Source of the DNA: Alienimonas chondri
Lineage (GTDB): Bacteria > Planctomycetota > Planctomycetia > Planctomycetales > Planctomycetaceae
Direction: 5' to 3'
NCBI RefSeq assembly: GCF_013036045.1
Contig: NZ_WTPX01000006.1
Location: 1 to 35,000, forward strand
Length of the DNA stretch: 35,000 nt
Each line of letters starts with the position of its first letter. The first letter of the stretch is position 1. The notes below the pieces were generated by a model. It was not told the origin of the DNA. It saw only the letters and a program-made list of their open reading frames with translations, and searched no databases. Positions 27,600-34,143 of the stretch are shown here, piece after piece. Position numbers and translations under genes: made by a program.

Positions 27600-29804
27600 T
27601 CACAGCTCGCCGTCCGGGAACTCGCTGACGACCCGCCGCAACTCGACCGCATCGCTGACCGCTTCGCCGGCGGCGACGTCTTCCTCCCGGAAGGTCGCCA
27701 TGAGGATCTGCCGGGCGCCGGTGCGACTGTAGTCGTAGATGAGATGAATGCGGCCGTCGTCGGTCTGCTGACCGTCGGGGTAGGAGACGCCGTTGCGTTC
27801 ATCAAGCAGCAGCCCGCCGGTCCAAGTGGCGCCGTCGTCGTCGGAGAGGAACGCCGTCAGGTGCGAGCGGCCCGTGCGTTCGGCGATCGGTCCGTGCTTG
27901 ACCAGCAGCAGCTTGCCCGAGGCGAGCCGCCGGATGAAGAACCGGGCGCTGGGGTGGGCGATCTGCGAGGGCGTGAGGTCCGGCCAAGTGGCGCCGCGGT
28001 CGGTCGAGACGCTCTCGCCGATGCCGTAATTCGTTCGCACCAGCATCCACAGGGAGCCGTCGGCTCGCTCCACGAACATGTGCTCGTCGAAGGAACGCAC
28101 CTCCTTCGGGACGTTGCAGGCGCCGCGGAGAGACCACGTTTCGCCCTGATCCGTGGAGACGATCATGCGGGCGCTGGCGTCCGTCGCCCGCCACGTCGAC
28201 GCCGGCAGGACCCACTCGCCGCTGCTGAGCACGACTGGTTTGCACATCATGATGCCGTCGGCGACCCGTCGGGGGGCGCTCCAGGTCGGTCGGGCGGCGT
28301 CCGGTTCGTCGGTCTGCACGCACCACACGCCGGCGACGGTGCCGTTATGGCCTTCGGCCTGTGCCCAGAAGATATAAAGACGGCCGTTCGGAGCGAGCCA
28401 TAATTCGGGATCGTACGCCCGCACGGGACCGGGACCGTCGGGGTCGATCACCAGCGCTTCGCGCCAAGACGCTCCGTCGTCGTCGCTGGTCGAGACGACC
28501 ACATAATTGTTCTGATCCTCGCCCGGCGTGGGGCCGGCGTACCAGTTCGCCCACAGTCGCCCGCCCGGCGCGACCGCCAGGCTGGGAATCCCCTGAAATT
28601 TGCGGCTCTTTAAGGCGTGCGCCGCCTGCGGCGGACCGACGTGCGCCGGCGGGGCGAGAAACGCTTCCTGCGGCGGAGCAGGGGACTGAAGGCCGGCGAG
28701 CGTCGCCTTTAATCGGTCGGCCTCCGCGGGATTCGCCGGCAACGACTCGTCGTGCATCGCCGGCAGGAGATGCTTCCAGACCAAATCGAGCTGCGTTTGC
28801 AACGTCCGGGTCTTGGCGGTCATGACCACCACCGCGTCCTGCTCCGGCAGCACGACGCAGAATTGGCCGTCCTTGCCGTCGCCGCGGTAGGCGTCGTGAC
28901 GGCACTGCCAGAATTGAAAGCCGTAGCCCTCGCGCCAGTCCGGGTTGCCGGCGCTGGGGGCCTTGCTGTTGTCGACCTGGTTCGCGGTCGCGGCGGCGAT
29001 CCACTCGGCCGGGACGAGCTGCCGCCCGTTCCACCGCCCCTTCTGTAAATAGAGCTGACCGAATTTCGCGATGTCCTCCGTCTTGAGGAACAGCCCGTAT
29101 CCCCCGATCGACACGCCCTGCGGACTAGCGTCCCACCGCGGTTTCTCAATGCCGAGCGGCTCGAACAACCGCGGCTGAAGATAATCCAACACCGTTTGCC
29201 CGGTCGCCTTTTGGACGATCGCCGACAGCATGTACGTCGCCGGCGTGTTATAGCGGAACCTGGAGCCGGGTTCGTGCGGCACGGGGTGGGCGAGGAACTG
29301 CCGCGTCCACACGCCGTCCGCCGTCAGCTTGGGTTCCGCAGCATGCCCGGCGGACATCGTCAGCAGGTCGCGGACGCGCATCGCCTGCAGGTTTTCCGAG
29401 GGCTCCGCCGGGGCGTCGTCCGGGAAGAAACTCAACACTTTATCATCGAGTTTGAACTTCCCCTCCGCGATCGCCAGACCCACGGCGGTCGAGGTGAAGC
29501 TCTTGCTGAGCGACCACAGGATATGCGGTTTCTCGGGCGCCTCGTCGCCCCACCAGCCCTCGGCGACGACCTTTCCGTGCCGAAGCAGCATGAAGCTGTG
29601 CATGTCTTGCACGCCTTCGTCCGCGGCCTCCACGAACGCTCGCACGCCCGCCGAAGAGACGCCCTGCGCCTCCGGCGTACTCCGCGGCAGCGACTTTCTT
29701 TCAGCAGCCGGAGGCTCTGCGGCCAGCAGCGACGGGGAGAGCAGTAAAAGAGCGACGAATCGAAGCACGGCGGGACCGTTTGAAGAGGGGCGGGGCGACG
29801 GCAA
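27600..29804 (-). CDS. Serine hydrolase (beta-lactamase class C-like) fused to sialidase-like propeller
   Basis: A 734-residue secreted two-domain protein. A signal peptide (about residues 12-29, AVLRFVALLLLSPSLLAA) leads into a beta-lactamase/penicillin-binding-protein-like serine hydrolase. Its nucleophile is Ser98 in SLSK (SxxK, Lys101), with Tyr185 in FRYNTPATYML as a second catalytic residue and SIGGYGLFLKTEDIAKFGQL as the family's later motif. From about residue 395 to the end is a six-bladed sialidase-like propeller with four Asp-box copies (SDDDGASW, STDQGETW, STDRGATW, SDDDGATW). Such propellers can cleave or bind sugars; an arginine triad is not obvious, so sialidase activity is uncertain. 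The start is a TTG at 29804; a GTG at 29768 lies directly at the signal peptide and is a fair alternative. Confidence 0.85.
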   Translation of the reverse strand: MPSPRPSSNGPAVLRFVALLLLSPSLLAAEPPAAERKSLPRSTPEAQGVSSAGVRAFVEAADEGVQDMHSFMLLRHGKVVAEGWWGDEAPEKPHILWSLSKSFTSTAVGLAIAEGKFKLDDKVLSFFPDDAPAEPSENLQAMRVRDLLTMSAGHAAEPKLTADGVWTRQFLAHPVPHEPGSRFRYNTPATYMLSAIVQKATGQTVLDYLQPRLFEPLGIEKPRWDASPQGVSIGGYGLFLKTEDIAKFGQLYLQKGRWNGRQLVPAEWIAAATANQVDNSKAPSAGNPDWREGYGFQFWQCRHDAYRGDGKDGQFCVVLPEQDAVVVMTAKTRTLQTQLDLVWKHLLPAMHDESLPANPAEADRLKATLAGLQSPAPPQEAFLAPPAHVGPPQAAHALKSRKFQGIPSLAVAPGGRLWANWYAGPTPGEDQNNYVVVSTSDDDGASWREALVIDPDGPGPVRAYDPELWLAPNGRLYIFWAQAEGHNGTVAGVWCVQTDEPDAARPTWSAPRRVADGIMMCKPVVLSSGEWVLPASTWRATDASARMIVSTDQGETWSLRGACNVPKEVRSFDEHMFVERADGSLWMLVRTNYGIGESVSTDRGATWPDLTPSQIAHPSARFFIRRLASGKLLLVKHGPIAERTGRSHLTAFLSDDDGATWTGGLLLDERNGVSYPDGQQTDDGRIHLIYDYSRTGARQILMATFREEDVAAGEAVSDAVELRRVVSEFPDGEL

Positions 29805-29920: not shown

Positions 29921-30532
29921 TTATGTGTCGGACGCCGCGGCGGGAGCGTCCGGGACCATCAGACGAGCAAGATAATCCGCGTGCCGCGTCACCGACGCCC
30001 GCGAGGTCGGGTCGATCCCCGTGATGCGTTCGCATTCCGGTCCCGCATTGAACATCGCGCCGGCGGCTGCGGCCAGCGTATAAAACGCGTGCGGCAGGTC
30101 GGCCGCGGGCGTGTCCTCCAGCGCCTCCGCCACTTGAGCGTAGGTGCGGGCGAGGTGCGTGTCGGCCAGCCAGCGGGACCGAACGTCGTCGGTCTTCCCG
30201 TAAAGCGCCATGAATCGGGTGAACTCCGGGTGTTTGGCGTGAAAGAGCACCAGGCGACGGATGTACTCCCGCTGCCTGGTGCGGGAGTCCGCCTTGTCCG
30301 GGGAGATGATCGCCCGCTCCATCCAGTCGTCATGCAGGGCGAACAGATGATCCGCGGCGGCCCGCCACAACTCCTCTTTGTTCTTGAAGTGGTAGGTGAG
30401 CAAACCCTGACTGACGCTGGCCAGCTCGGCGATCGTTCGGGTGCTGGCCCCGTCGAACCCCAGTTCCGACAGGGCCGTGAGCGCCGCGGCGACGATCTGT
30501 TCGCGGGTCTGTTCGCGCTGTTTGGCCCTCAC
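29921..30532 (-). CDS. TetR-family transcriptional regulator
   Basis: A 203-residue regulator. The N-terminal helix-turn-helix spans about residues 8-56, with EQIVAAALTALSELGFDGAS and then TRTIAELASVSQGLLTYHFK, ending in the TetR-typical NKEELW. The remaining helices form the ligand-binding and dimerisation part (EFTRFMALYGKTDDVRSR and TYAQVAEALEDTP), whose inducer cannot be guessed. The start is a GTG at 30532, with GAGGGA about ten bases upstream. It is divergent from the haloperoxidase gene, and three related palindromes lie between them, so it most likely represses itself and that gene. Confidence 0.93.
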   Translation of the reverse strand: MRAKQREQTREQIVAAALTALSELGFDGASTRTIAELASVSQGLLTYHFKNKEELWRAAADHLFALHDDWMERAIISPDKADSRTRQREYIRRLVLFHAKHPEFTRFMALYGKTDDVRSRWLADTHLARTYAQVAEALEDTPAADLPHAFYTLAAAAGAMFNAGPECERITGIDPTSRASVTRHADYLARLMVPDAPAAASDT

Positions 30533-30594
30533 GGGGTCGTTTCCCTCGGTCGGTGAGCGGAGATCGGAACGCTCGGACGCGAAAAACTTTCGGA

Positions 30595-30676
30595 CTTGTC
30601 ACTTGACAAGCCAACGGGACGTCCGAGAGTGGAGTCGCTTGTCGTCCGACAAGCGAGCCGCTGGTCGCCTGACAAG
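30595..30676. promoter_or_regulatory. Three TetR operator palindromes
   Basis: Three 16-bp sites share the pattern CTTGTCR-N2-YGACAAG. Site 1 (30595-30610) has CTTGTCA and TGACAAG around CT. Site 2 (30638-30653) has CTTGTCG and CGACAAG around TC, and its arms extend to 9 bp at 30636-30655. Site 3 (30661-30676) has CTGGTCG and TGACAAG around CC, with one arm degenerate. Centre spacings are 43 and 23 bases. They fill the divergent promoter region, as expected for a TetR regulator controlling both sides. Confidence 0.8.
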
Positions 30677-30714
30677 CGGCGTCGCCCATTCTGGGTTTCG
30701 GTCCTTCAATCCAC

Positions 30715-30720
30715 AAGGAG
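30715..30720 (+). promoter_or_regulatory. Strong ribosome-binding site
   Basis: AAGGAG, six bases before the ATG at 30727, is the clearest Shine-Dalgarno in the window and fixes the start of the haloperoxidase gene. Confidence 0.8.
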
Positions 30721-30726
30721 CTTCCG

Positions 30727-32520
30727 ATGAGACGCTCGACGTACGCGGCCGGAGCGCTGGCCGTGATGATGTTGGCGACGGCTTCGCCGGCGCCGGGGCA
30801 ACAACGCGGGGACCAACGAGGCGAGAAGTTCACCCGATCCCAGAAGATCGGGTATCTGGGTCAGACGAGCCGCTCGGCGATGGCCCGCAACGTTCTGAGC
30901 CGGCTGAAGAACCGAACGCGAGCGAGGCAGGTGGAGAATTCCGTCGATCGTGTGCTGCTGTGGCATGAGATCCTGTTGGACACCGGGGCCATCGACCACA
31001 CGCCGGACCCGGACTCCGACGCGGTCGGCTTCGAGAACGGCGGACCGACTCGAACCAGCCGGTGTCTGGCGATGGTTCAGATCGCGGTTTTCGATGCCGC
31101 GAACGCGATCGACGGGCGGTACGCCGGATACAACGAGATCGACCCGCCCGGCGGCGGGGCGTCGCTGGACGCCGCCGTCGCCTACGCCTCCCACGACGTA
31201 CAGGCCGCGCTGTACCCGGCCCAGGCGGAACGACTCGCGGCTCTGCTGGAGTCCGACCTTGCTCAGATCGACGCCGATCCGGAGGCCCTCGCCGCCGGCC
31301 GGGCGATCGGGGAGGCCGCCGCGGAGGCGATCCTTGCCCGGCGGGCGGACGACGGCTCCGCGCATTCCGAACCCGATTGGGGGCAGGGCGGCCAGGTCGC
31401 CGACGGCGGGGCGGCGTTCGACGGCACGCCGATCAACGCCGGCTCGACGGATGTCTTCCAGTGGGAACCGGATCCCCTGACCCCGCCGACCAGCGGCGAC
31501 TTCGACCTTGCCCTCGGCGCCTACTGGGGCGGCGTCACGCCGTTCGCCCTCGGGTCCGGTGATCAATTTCGCATCGGCCCCCCGCCGGAGCCGGGATCCA
31601 TGGCCTACGTCACGGGGTGGTGGGAGGCGCACATGTACGGAGCGTCCGCCGATACGTCGCTGAGCCTGTCGACGCCGGAATCGCGGTTTATCGGCAACTT
31701 TTGGGGATATGACGCGACCCCGCTGCTCGGCACGCCGCCGCGGATGTACAACCAGATCGCGGCGACCGTCGCCGTCAGCGAGGGGATCGACGATCCGGTC
31801 GATATGGCCCGATACCTGGCGCTGGTGAACGTCGGCTTGGCGGACGCGGGCATTGCCGCCTGGGACAGCAAATACTATTACAATTATTGGCGCCCGGTGA
31901 CCGGCATGCGGCGGTCCGACGGCGTCGACCCCGAGGAGGAGCCGTCCTCGACCCTCGGCGACAACCCGGTCTCCGTTCTGCTGCAATCGGCCCGGCGATC
32001 GGCGAGGCGGGTGCAGCAAACGGACGGGCGTGCCGTCACTCTTGAGAACGAGGAGTGGAAGCCGGTCGGCATTTCGGTCATCAATACCCGGGAGCCGATC
32101 ACGCCGACCCCGCCGTTTCCCGCTTACCCCTCGGGACACTCCACGTTCGGGGCTGCGACGTTCGAGGTGATGCGGAGTTTCTTCAGCGACGACACCCGAT
32201 TCACCTTCGTCTCGGAGGAATACAACGGCGAGGGCGTCGATCCGCTGGGCGTGCCCCGACCGCTGGTCCCCGTCCGGTTCCGCTCGCTGACCGAAGCCCA
32301 GACGCAGAACGGCAAGAGCCGGATCTATAACGGCAGCCATTGGCCGTGGGACGACGAGGGCGGGCAGGAATTGGGCGTGAACGTCGCCCAGCACCTGTTG
32401 AACGCCGCGGCTTTCCGACCCGTCAATAATCGGGGGCCGCAGGGAGGCCGTGACGGTCGAGACGACAGCGGCCGCGAGTCCGGCGATCGCCGGGGCGGCG
32501 CCGACGGCCGACGCCGGTAG
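30727..32520 (+). CDS. Vanadium-dependent haloperoxidase / PAP2-like phosphatase, secreted
   Basis: A 597-residue exported protein. A signal peptide covers about residues 1-24 (AAGALAVMMLATASPAPG). The vanadate/phosphate-binding residues of the PAP2 superfamily are present: Lys382 with Arg389-Pro390 in KYYYNYWRP, the loop Pro468-Ser-Gly-His471-Ser in YPSGHSTFG, and Arg532 with His538 in SRIYNGSHWPWDDEGGQELG. In haloperoxidases His538's equivalent binds vanadium and His471's equivalent is the acid-base residue. Activity could be halide oxidation by hydrogen peroxide or phosphatase action; sequence alone cannot decide. The C-terminus is a low-complexity Gly/Arg/Asp tail. Expression is probably derepressed by the TetR ligand through the three operators upstream. 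Confidence 0.9.
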   Translation: MRRSTYAAGALAVMMLATASPAPGQQRGDQRGEKFTRSQKIGYLGQTSRSAMARNVLSRLKNRTRARQVENSVDRVLLWHEILLDTGAIDHTPDPDSDAVGFENGGPTRTSRCLAMVQIAVFDAANAIDGRYAGYNEIDPPGGGASLDAAVAYASHDVQAALYPAQAERLAALLESDLAQIDADPEALAAGRAIGEAAAEAILARRADDGSAHSEPDWGQGGQVADGGAAFDGTPINAGSTDVFQWEPDPLTPPTSGDFDLALGAYWGGVTPFALGSGDQFRIGPPPEPGSMAYVTGWWEAHMYGASADTSLSLSTPESRFIGNFWGYDATPLLGTPPRMYNQIAATVAVSEGIDDPVDMARYLALVNVGLADAGIAAWDSKYYYNYWRPVTGMRRSDGVDPEEEPSSTLGDNPVSVLLQSARRSARRVQQTDGRAVTLENEEWKPVGISVINTREPITPTPPFPAYPSGHSTFGAATFEVMRSFFSDDTRFTFVSEEYNGEGVDPLGVPRPLVPVRFRSLTEAQTQNGKSRIYNGSHWPWDDEGGQELGVNVAQHLLNAAAFRPVNNRGPQGGRDGRDDSGRESGDRRGGADGRRR

Positions 32521-32562: not shown

Positions 32563-33135
32563 ATGAACAAGCGCAAACGCCGTCGCCCCGTCTTCATACG
32601 ACGGCGGTCGTCGCTGTCCGCCCTGCTCGTTCTCTCGTCGGCGCTGTTCGGCTGCGATCGCGCCGACGGGACGCACGAGAGCGTTCCAGCAGCCGTCATG
32701 ACGACCCCCGTCGAGAACGTCATCGAGGAAACGCCGCATGGAGCGAAGGACGCCGAACCGGCCGAGGCGACGGCCTCGCCGTTTATCGAACAGGAACTGG
32801 ACCAGCTCGGCTCCCCGTTCACCAGGGAGACCGTGCTGGAATTGAACGAGATCGTCGCCCGTTCCCTCACCGTGATTGAACGATTCGACGAGGTGCGGAT
32901 GCAGAGCGATGCGGCGACCGCCCCGGTCAGTCCCGGTGAGGTTTACGGAGAACTCTCAGAGCGAGCCGATCGAGCGCGGGCGGACTTAAACGCGACGGCG
33001 ACGCGTCTTCGCGACAGTGACGAGAGACACAACGCGGCGATCCTCGCAGCGATGGTGCGGTTCGTCGACGGGGTCGACCGGGAAATCCGGGAGGAGATCG
33101 CACTCACGCGACATCTCCCGGGACGGCCGGAGTGA
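32563..33135 (+). CDS. Hypothetical lipoprotein with helical mature part
   Basis: A 190-residue protein of unrecognised family. A very basic N-terminus (MNKRKRRRPVFIRRRSSLS) is followed by LLVLSSALFGC, a lipobox with Cys31 as the likely lipid anchor. An Ala/Glu/Pro-rich linker of about 40 residues leads to a mainly helical, charged region, such as ELSERADRARADLNATATRL and VRFVDGVDREIREEIA, with coiled-coil character. No catalytic motif is seen. It starts 42 bases after the haloperoxidase gene and probably shares its transcript and its TetR control. Confidence 0.7.
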   Translation: MNKRKRRRPVFIRRRSSLSALLVLSSALFGCDRADGTHESVPAAVMTTPVENVIEETPHGAKDAEPAEATASPFIEQELDQLGSPFTRETVLELNEIVARSLTVIERFDEVRMQSDAATAPVSPGEVYGELSERADRARADLNATATRLRDSDERHNAAILAAMVRFVDGVDREIREEIALTRHLPGRPE

Positions 33136-33237: not shown

Positions 33238-34143
33238 TTAGTAGCTGAACTCGACCTTCTGCCACCAGCGGGCCTTATAGAACCTCGCCCCGTCGATCGT
33301 GTGACGGCCTGTCGACCCTTTCGGCAGGACGGGGATCACGGAGTCGCTCTGCCAGCTGGGGGCGTTCTCGATCATTCTGGGTTCGCTCACCCAGATGGAG
33401 CCATCGGAATGTTGGCTCGCGCTTTTGATCGCTGGAAGTTCGGAAACGGTCTCGAACGCCTCCGTTTCGATGTCGAAAAGAAACAACGCGTCGTTGTTGC
33501 TGACCAGCAGCTTGGAGTCTTTTCTCAACGGAAACAGGTCGTGCCCGGTCGGCGTCAGCGGCAACTCGAACTGGCCGTCCGGGAGGAGATTCCCCTCCAC
33601 GTAGCGATATCGATAGAGACGATCCCCGAGAGCCCAGAGACGTTCCCGCTCTTTGTCCCAGGTTACCCCGTGGGCATACGGCAGCTTCAAATCGACGAAC
33701 GTCTCCGCCGATCGATGCAGCCGCAATACGCCATGATTGCTGTTGGCGCTGACGATCGCCCCGTCCGGCAAGAGCTCCGCGGAATGACAGCTGCTGTAAG
33801 AATGACAGCTGCTGTAAGACGGATAATCCTTGACGAGTTCAAGGTCTTTGAAGCGGATCAGCCGCACGCGCGAGTGATAGGCGGCGAGGATGTACGTTTC
33901 TCCACCGAACTCCACGCGCTTGGCGTCGGTGGGCTTATATTCGATCGGCCTCTCTTCCGCCGCGGGATAAAGCCACAACGCGGCGTCCTCCCCGTTCCGG
34001 GCGAGCGGGTTCACGAGGCGGATGCGATTGTCCGCCTGATCGGCGCACAGAAACGCCGGGGTCTGCAGCAGCGCCGCATCGGGTTCGGCTGCCGGAGCAA
34101 TCACGGCCAGCGAAGCCAGCAAACCGGCGGCGAAGAGGGGCAT
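33238..34143 (-). CDS. Secreted DUF6528-like beta-propeller protein
   Basis: A 301-residue exported protein. A signal peptide (MPLFAAGLLASLAVIAPAA) precedes a domain with short repeated beta-strand patterns, such as FLCADQADNRIRLVNP, LLPDGAIVSANSNHGVL, YAHGVTWDKERERLWALGDR and KLLVSNNDALFLFDIE, as in small beta-propellers. It resembles the DUF6528 family, which is common in Bacteroidetes and planctomycetes. Its role is unknown; such proteins often accompany sugar or sulfatase loci. A six-residue SYSSCH duplication sits in the middle and corresponds exactly to an 18-bp tandem repeat. It lies upstream, in transcription, of no other gene here and converges on the haloperoxidase operon. The ATG at 34143 begins the signal peptide. 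Confidence 0.75.
   Translation of the reverse strand: MPLFAAGLLASLAVIAPAAEPDAALLQTPAFLCADQADNRIRLVNPLARNGEDAALWLYPAAEERPIEYKPTDAKRVEFGGETYILAAYHSRVRLIRFKDLELVKDYPSYSSCHSYSSCHSAELLPDGAIVSANSNHGVLRLHRSAETFVDLKLPYAHGVTWDKERERLWALGDRLYRYRYVEGNLLPDGQFELPLTPTGHDLFPLRKDSKLLVSNNDALFLFDIETEAFETVSELPAIKSASQHSDGSIWVSEPRMIENAPSWQSDSVIPVLPKGSTGRHTIDGARFYKARWWQKVEFSY
33782..33817. repeat. 18-bp in-frame tandem duplication
   Basis: GAATGACAGCTGCTGTAA occurs twice back to back (33782-33799 and 33800-33817) with no mismatch. It lies inside the DUF6528-like gene and duplicates Ser-Tyr-Ser-Ser-Cys-His, leaving the frame intact. Confidence 0.95.

Follow-up and report, generated by a model that had tools for sequence, protein, structure and literature searches.

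Two divergent genes of Alienimonas chondri, one for a TetR-family regulator and the other for a vanadium-haloperoxidase-like enzyme, are separated by a gap containing three almost identical palindromes, which raises the question of whether these are operators of the regulator and what they would control. The window analyzed is a stretch of 35,000 nucleotides (positions 1 to 35,000 of contig NZ_WTPX01000006.1). The gap comprises 194 bp (30533-30726), and a pattern search for CTTGTCR-N2-YGACAAG returned two perfect matches and one with a single mismatch, all within 82 bp, with the enzyme start codon 50-131 nt downstream (Table 1). The search reproduces both the positions and the start-to-start spacing (43 and 23) given in the sequence-only reading, and sites 1 and 2 have the perfect 7-9-bp arms that it described. 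Its term "degenerate" for the remaining site is correct as regards the one mismatch, but the CTGGTC half of site 3 is also used among the sites of the regulator's relatives (loci L036 and L132; CTTGTCAATCGACCAA at 4929-4944 of L036 has the same half-site variant), and the site need not be decayed or weak. A search of the 194-bp gap for sigma-70-like promoters gave no match, thus overlap between sites and promoter is not demonstrable.

Table 1. Coordinates of the regulator, the putative operators and the enzyme unit in the window.
Feature	Position	Strand	Length or sequence	Remarks
TetR-family regulator	29921..30532	-	203 aa	GTG start; PF00440 E 6e-12
Putative operator 1	30595-30610		CTTGTCACTTGACAAG	TetR-proximal; TetR strand reads CTTGTCAAGTGACAAG; 0 mismatches, perfect arms 7 bp
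Putative operator 2	30638-30653		CTTGTCGTCCGACAAG	0 mismatches; perfect 9-bp arms, CGCTTGTCG-TC-CGACAAGCG
Putative operator 3	30661-30676		CTGGTCGCCTGACAAG	1 mismatch, one half CTGGTC; 50 nt 5' of enzyme start codon
Vanadium-haloperoxidase-like exported enzyme	30727..32520	+	597 aa	AAGGAG before ATG; signal-peptide-like N-terminus
Small lipoprotein-like protein	32563..33135	+	190 aa	Lipobox-like ALFGC; 43 nt after enzyme

The genome-wide distribution of the motif differs from the random frequency that the sequence-only reading had named as evidence against its proposal. Matches with zero or one mismatch in the 5,295,625-base genome are confined to the three gap sites, whereas the reversed control pattern occurs at 22 places at this stringency. 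At two mismatches there are 22 further places for the motif and 184 for the control. We considered a wider regulon and rejected it, given the lack of a second place in the genome with zero or one mismatch and the smaller number of two-mismatch places relative to the control. From composition alone, 0.04 perfect sites would be expected per genome, and the presence of three copies in 82 bp makes it extremely improbable that the palindromes are products of chance. The same low probability applies to RNA hairpins formed in the enzyme's mRNA leader: perfect inverted repeats can in principle fold in this way, but relatives of the regulator keep the sequence and not the pairing alone, and no terminator-like site was found in the gap.

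The regulator has the TetR_N helix-turn-helix (PF00440, 45.6 bits compared with a cut-off of 24) but reached no equivalog model, and its predicted start fits those of its relatives (MNKREQQREQTRE / MKTRAQQRKETR). As is typical of the TetR family, a predicted palindromic operator lies near the regulator's own gene. The closest relatives (44-55% identity) are from a planctomycete and alphaproteobacteria, and plasmid-borne relatives are at most 36% identical. Identity is 55% over residues 2-127 for the planctomycete protein (G296), 45% for the alphaproteobacterial protein of L036 (to which the TetRs of L132 and L133 are 67% and 63% identical) and 44% for the protein of L162.

The closest relatives have paired sites with the same half-site ahead of their own divergent gene or operon. 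A position weight matrix was built from the three window sites alone, and its best match upstream of each TetR gene was scored by a shuffle p; for all four of the closest divergent relatives (L036, L130/G296, L132 and L133) this value is 0 to 0.008. Each of the four has two sites 37-41 nt apart, a distal one (e.g., TTGGTCGATTGACAAG) and a proximal one, CTTGTCAAGTGAATAA, which is identical in all four loci and begins 26 nt upstream of the start codon of the TetR gene. This proximal site agrees in its first 12 nt with window site 1 as it reads on the TetR strand (CTTGTCAAGTGACAAG). Within the 1.1 Mb of loci fetched, the 12-mer CTTGTCAAGTGA from site 1 is confined to these four loci and is present at each of them. 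At L162 and L163 the TetR gene is inside an operon (in L162, glutathione S-transferase (GST), TetR, flavin monooxygenase) and paired sites are upstream of that operon; those of L162 are TTATTCGATTGACAAG and CTGTTCAAGTGACCAG, the second ending about 39 nt before the ATG of GST, the first gene. The spacing over all relatives with paired sites is 28-41 nt. Sites in the relatives are less symmetric, with two to three mismatches or more relative to the window pattern, and the pattern is not enriched at two mismatches in the relatives' whole genomes; thus, the case for operators in the relatives rests on position.

More distant TetRs (L141, L138, L143 and L144) gave matrix p values of 0.006-0.04, and three of these four have related but different motifs. 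Related palindromes such as TATGTCACTTGACATA and TTTGTTATTCAACAAG are found upstream of distant alphaproteobacterial TetRs (L142 at 1421-1436, L138 and L141), which suggests that the operator sequence may drift with the recognition helix. The matrix did not find the motif upstream of gammaproteobacterial relatives (33-35% identity), in which the recognition helix has HHPL instead of QGL. Those of L121-L127 share TTGGACCA-like upstream sequences, possibly an operator of their own.

Could the palindromes be bound by another regulator, with the TetR gene only a neighbor? This is very unlikely, as the half-sites accompany this TetR subfamily in different phyla and beside different genes, and are missing from loci that have the enzyme but not the TetR. 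The closest relative of the enzyme, which is 64% identical, is encoded at such a locus (G088), where neither a TetR gene nor palindromes were found. Site and regulator therefore co-occur, whatever the target gene. Since this sequence is also present at the promoters of the regulator's closest relatives, the palindromes are almost certainly binding sites of the adjacent TetR, as predicted from sequence comparison. The assignment made in the sequence-only reading is thus strongly supported by the footprint in relatives and by uniqueness within the genome.

We predict that the regulation is local and that this is an ordinary repressor switch. A TetR dimer would occupy each 16-bp site; when bound, it would repress the haloperoxidase gene together with the downstream lipoprotein gene and, probably, the gene for the regulator itself, until released by a small molecule that may be aromatic or of the quinone type. 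We consider it highly probable that the three palindromes serve as operators for such a divergent, autoregulating and ligand-released repressor of the haloperoxidase-lipoprotein unit. Whether repression is also stepwise, as the sequence-only reading proposed, is more doubtful. Sites 2 and 1 would fill first and site 3 last, giving several levels of expression, and the unequal symmetry of the sites and their spacing of 23 and 43 nt, which puts the three roughly on one face of the helix, are consistent with this. However, relatives manage with two sites, and the occurrence of the CTGGTC half in these means that lower affinity of site 3 is not readable from its sequence. Graded repression is thus a possible but rather unlikely refinement of the autoregulatory switch.

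The enzyme has a complete vanadate-binding signature (K-x6-RP as KYYYNYWRP, PSGH as YPSGH and SR-x5-H as SRIYNGSH). It matches a chloroperoxidase of Curvularia (E 8e-27), with alignment of the signature residues and of the flanking W and F, which we take to have a role in chloride oxidation. The identity as a vanadium haloperoxidase, suggested earlier from the sequence, is supported by this match and signature. An alternative is a PAP2-type phosphatase, as the tripartite signature is common to both classes; both the PAP2 model (E 2e-5) and the VCPO_2nd model score slightly under gathering (24.7 bits, with thresholds of 27.2 and 27), and there is no NCBIfam match. This assignment is unlikely, given that the best matches among solved structures all carry the name vanadium haloperoxidase, with one exception at E 0.004 (NapH3), and that residues near the site are chloroperoxidase-like (PPFPAYPSGH, and a W preceding the K motif). 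A haloperoxidase thus remains the preferred assignment, and a role in halogenation is likely, judging from the active-site residues only. Signal quenching, also raised in the sequence-only reading, is speculation; haloperoxidase-mediated inactivation of AHL signals has been reported for a diatom (PMC3917277). The enzyme shares with the vanadium chloroperoxidase of Curvularia inaequalis (PDB 1IDQ, 3BB0) the vanadate-binding K, R, S-G-H, R and H along with the flanking W and F. Unlike that enzyme, it is bacterial, is predicted to be exported and has a lipoprotein neighbor. Ahead of the PSGH motif it also has an insertion of about 35 residues (about residues 401-435), which the G088 relative lacks, and it ends in a charged Arg/Asp-rich tail.

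The lipoprotein-like gene is probably the second gene of the enzyme unit. A lipoprotein relative (51% identical) is encoded directly 3' of the enzyme relative in G088, thus enzyme and lipoprotein genes probably form the older pairing. We also looked for an insertion junction and rejected this possibility: in the only genome from the same genus both divergent genes are missing, but with synteny lost on either side there is no clean empty site. Elsewhere in the window, 27600-29804 (- strand) encodes a 734-aa fusion of serine beta-lactamase-like and BNR sialidase-like domains, of which the same-genus genome has an 84% identical copy with different neighbors on both sides. A DUF6528 protein encoded at 33238-34143 (- strand) has a short in-frame tandem repeat (SYSSCHSYSSCH).

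The TetR-operator unit is of a known kind, and only its association with a haloperoxidase is unusual. It resembles the divergent autoregulators of the TetR/AcrR type (TetR/tetO, TtgR, AcrR) in its PF00440 helix-turn-helix, divergent target and palindromic operators in the gap, but differs from them in its CTTGTCA-type operator, present in three copies. We found no description of an operator of this sequence in papers nor, in the open-access literature searched, any account of a bacterial vanadium haloperoxidase controlled by a repressor and its operator. The uncharacterized TetRs of L036, L130, L132 and L162 share the QGL-TYHF recognition helix and the same operators, but their loci (GST, FAD-monooxygenase or VOC-dioxygenase) have targets of the aromatic-catabolism type, in contrast to the haloperoxidase here. 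On the other side of the gap, L036 (by Pfam) and G296 (where the translation resembles that of L036) have a divergent VOC dioxygenase-like gene. Overall, the relatives' loci hold GST, flavin monooxygenase, nitroreductase/CMD and VOC dioxygenase genes, and this gene context suggests that the inducer may be an aromatic or quinone-type compound.

For synthetic biology, the sequence offers a candidate for a new operator. A TetR subfamily of aromatic or quinone catabolism may have been recruited with its operators to a haloperoxidase, which would give a substrate-inducible bacterial halogenation unit; we propose this tentatively, as a plausible reading with slightly less than even chances. A defined operator and recognition-helix footprint would provide a route to the inducer, and hence to the natural substrate of the enzyme.
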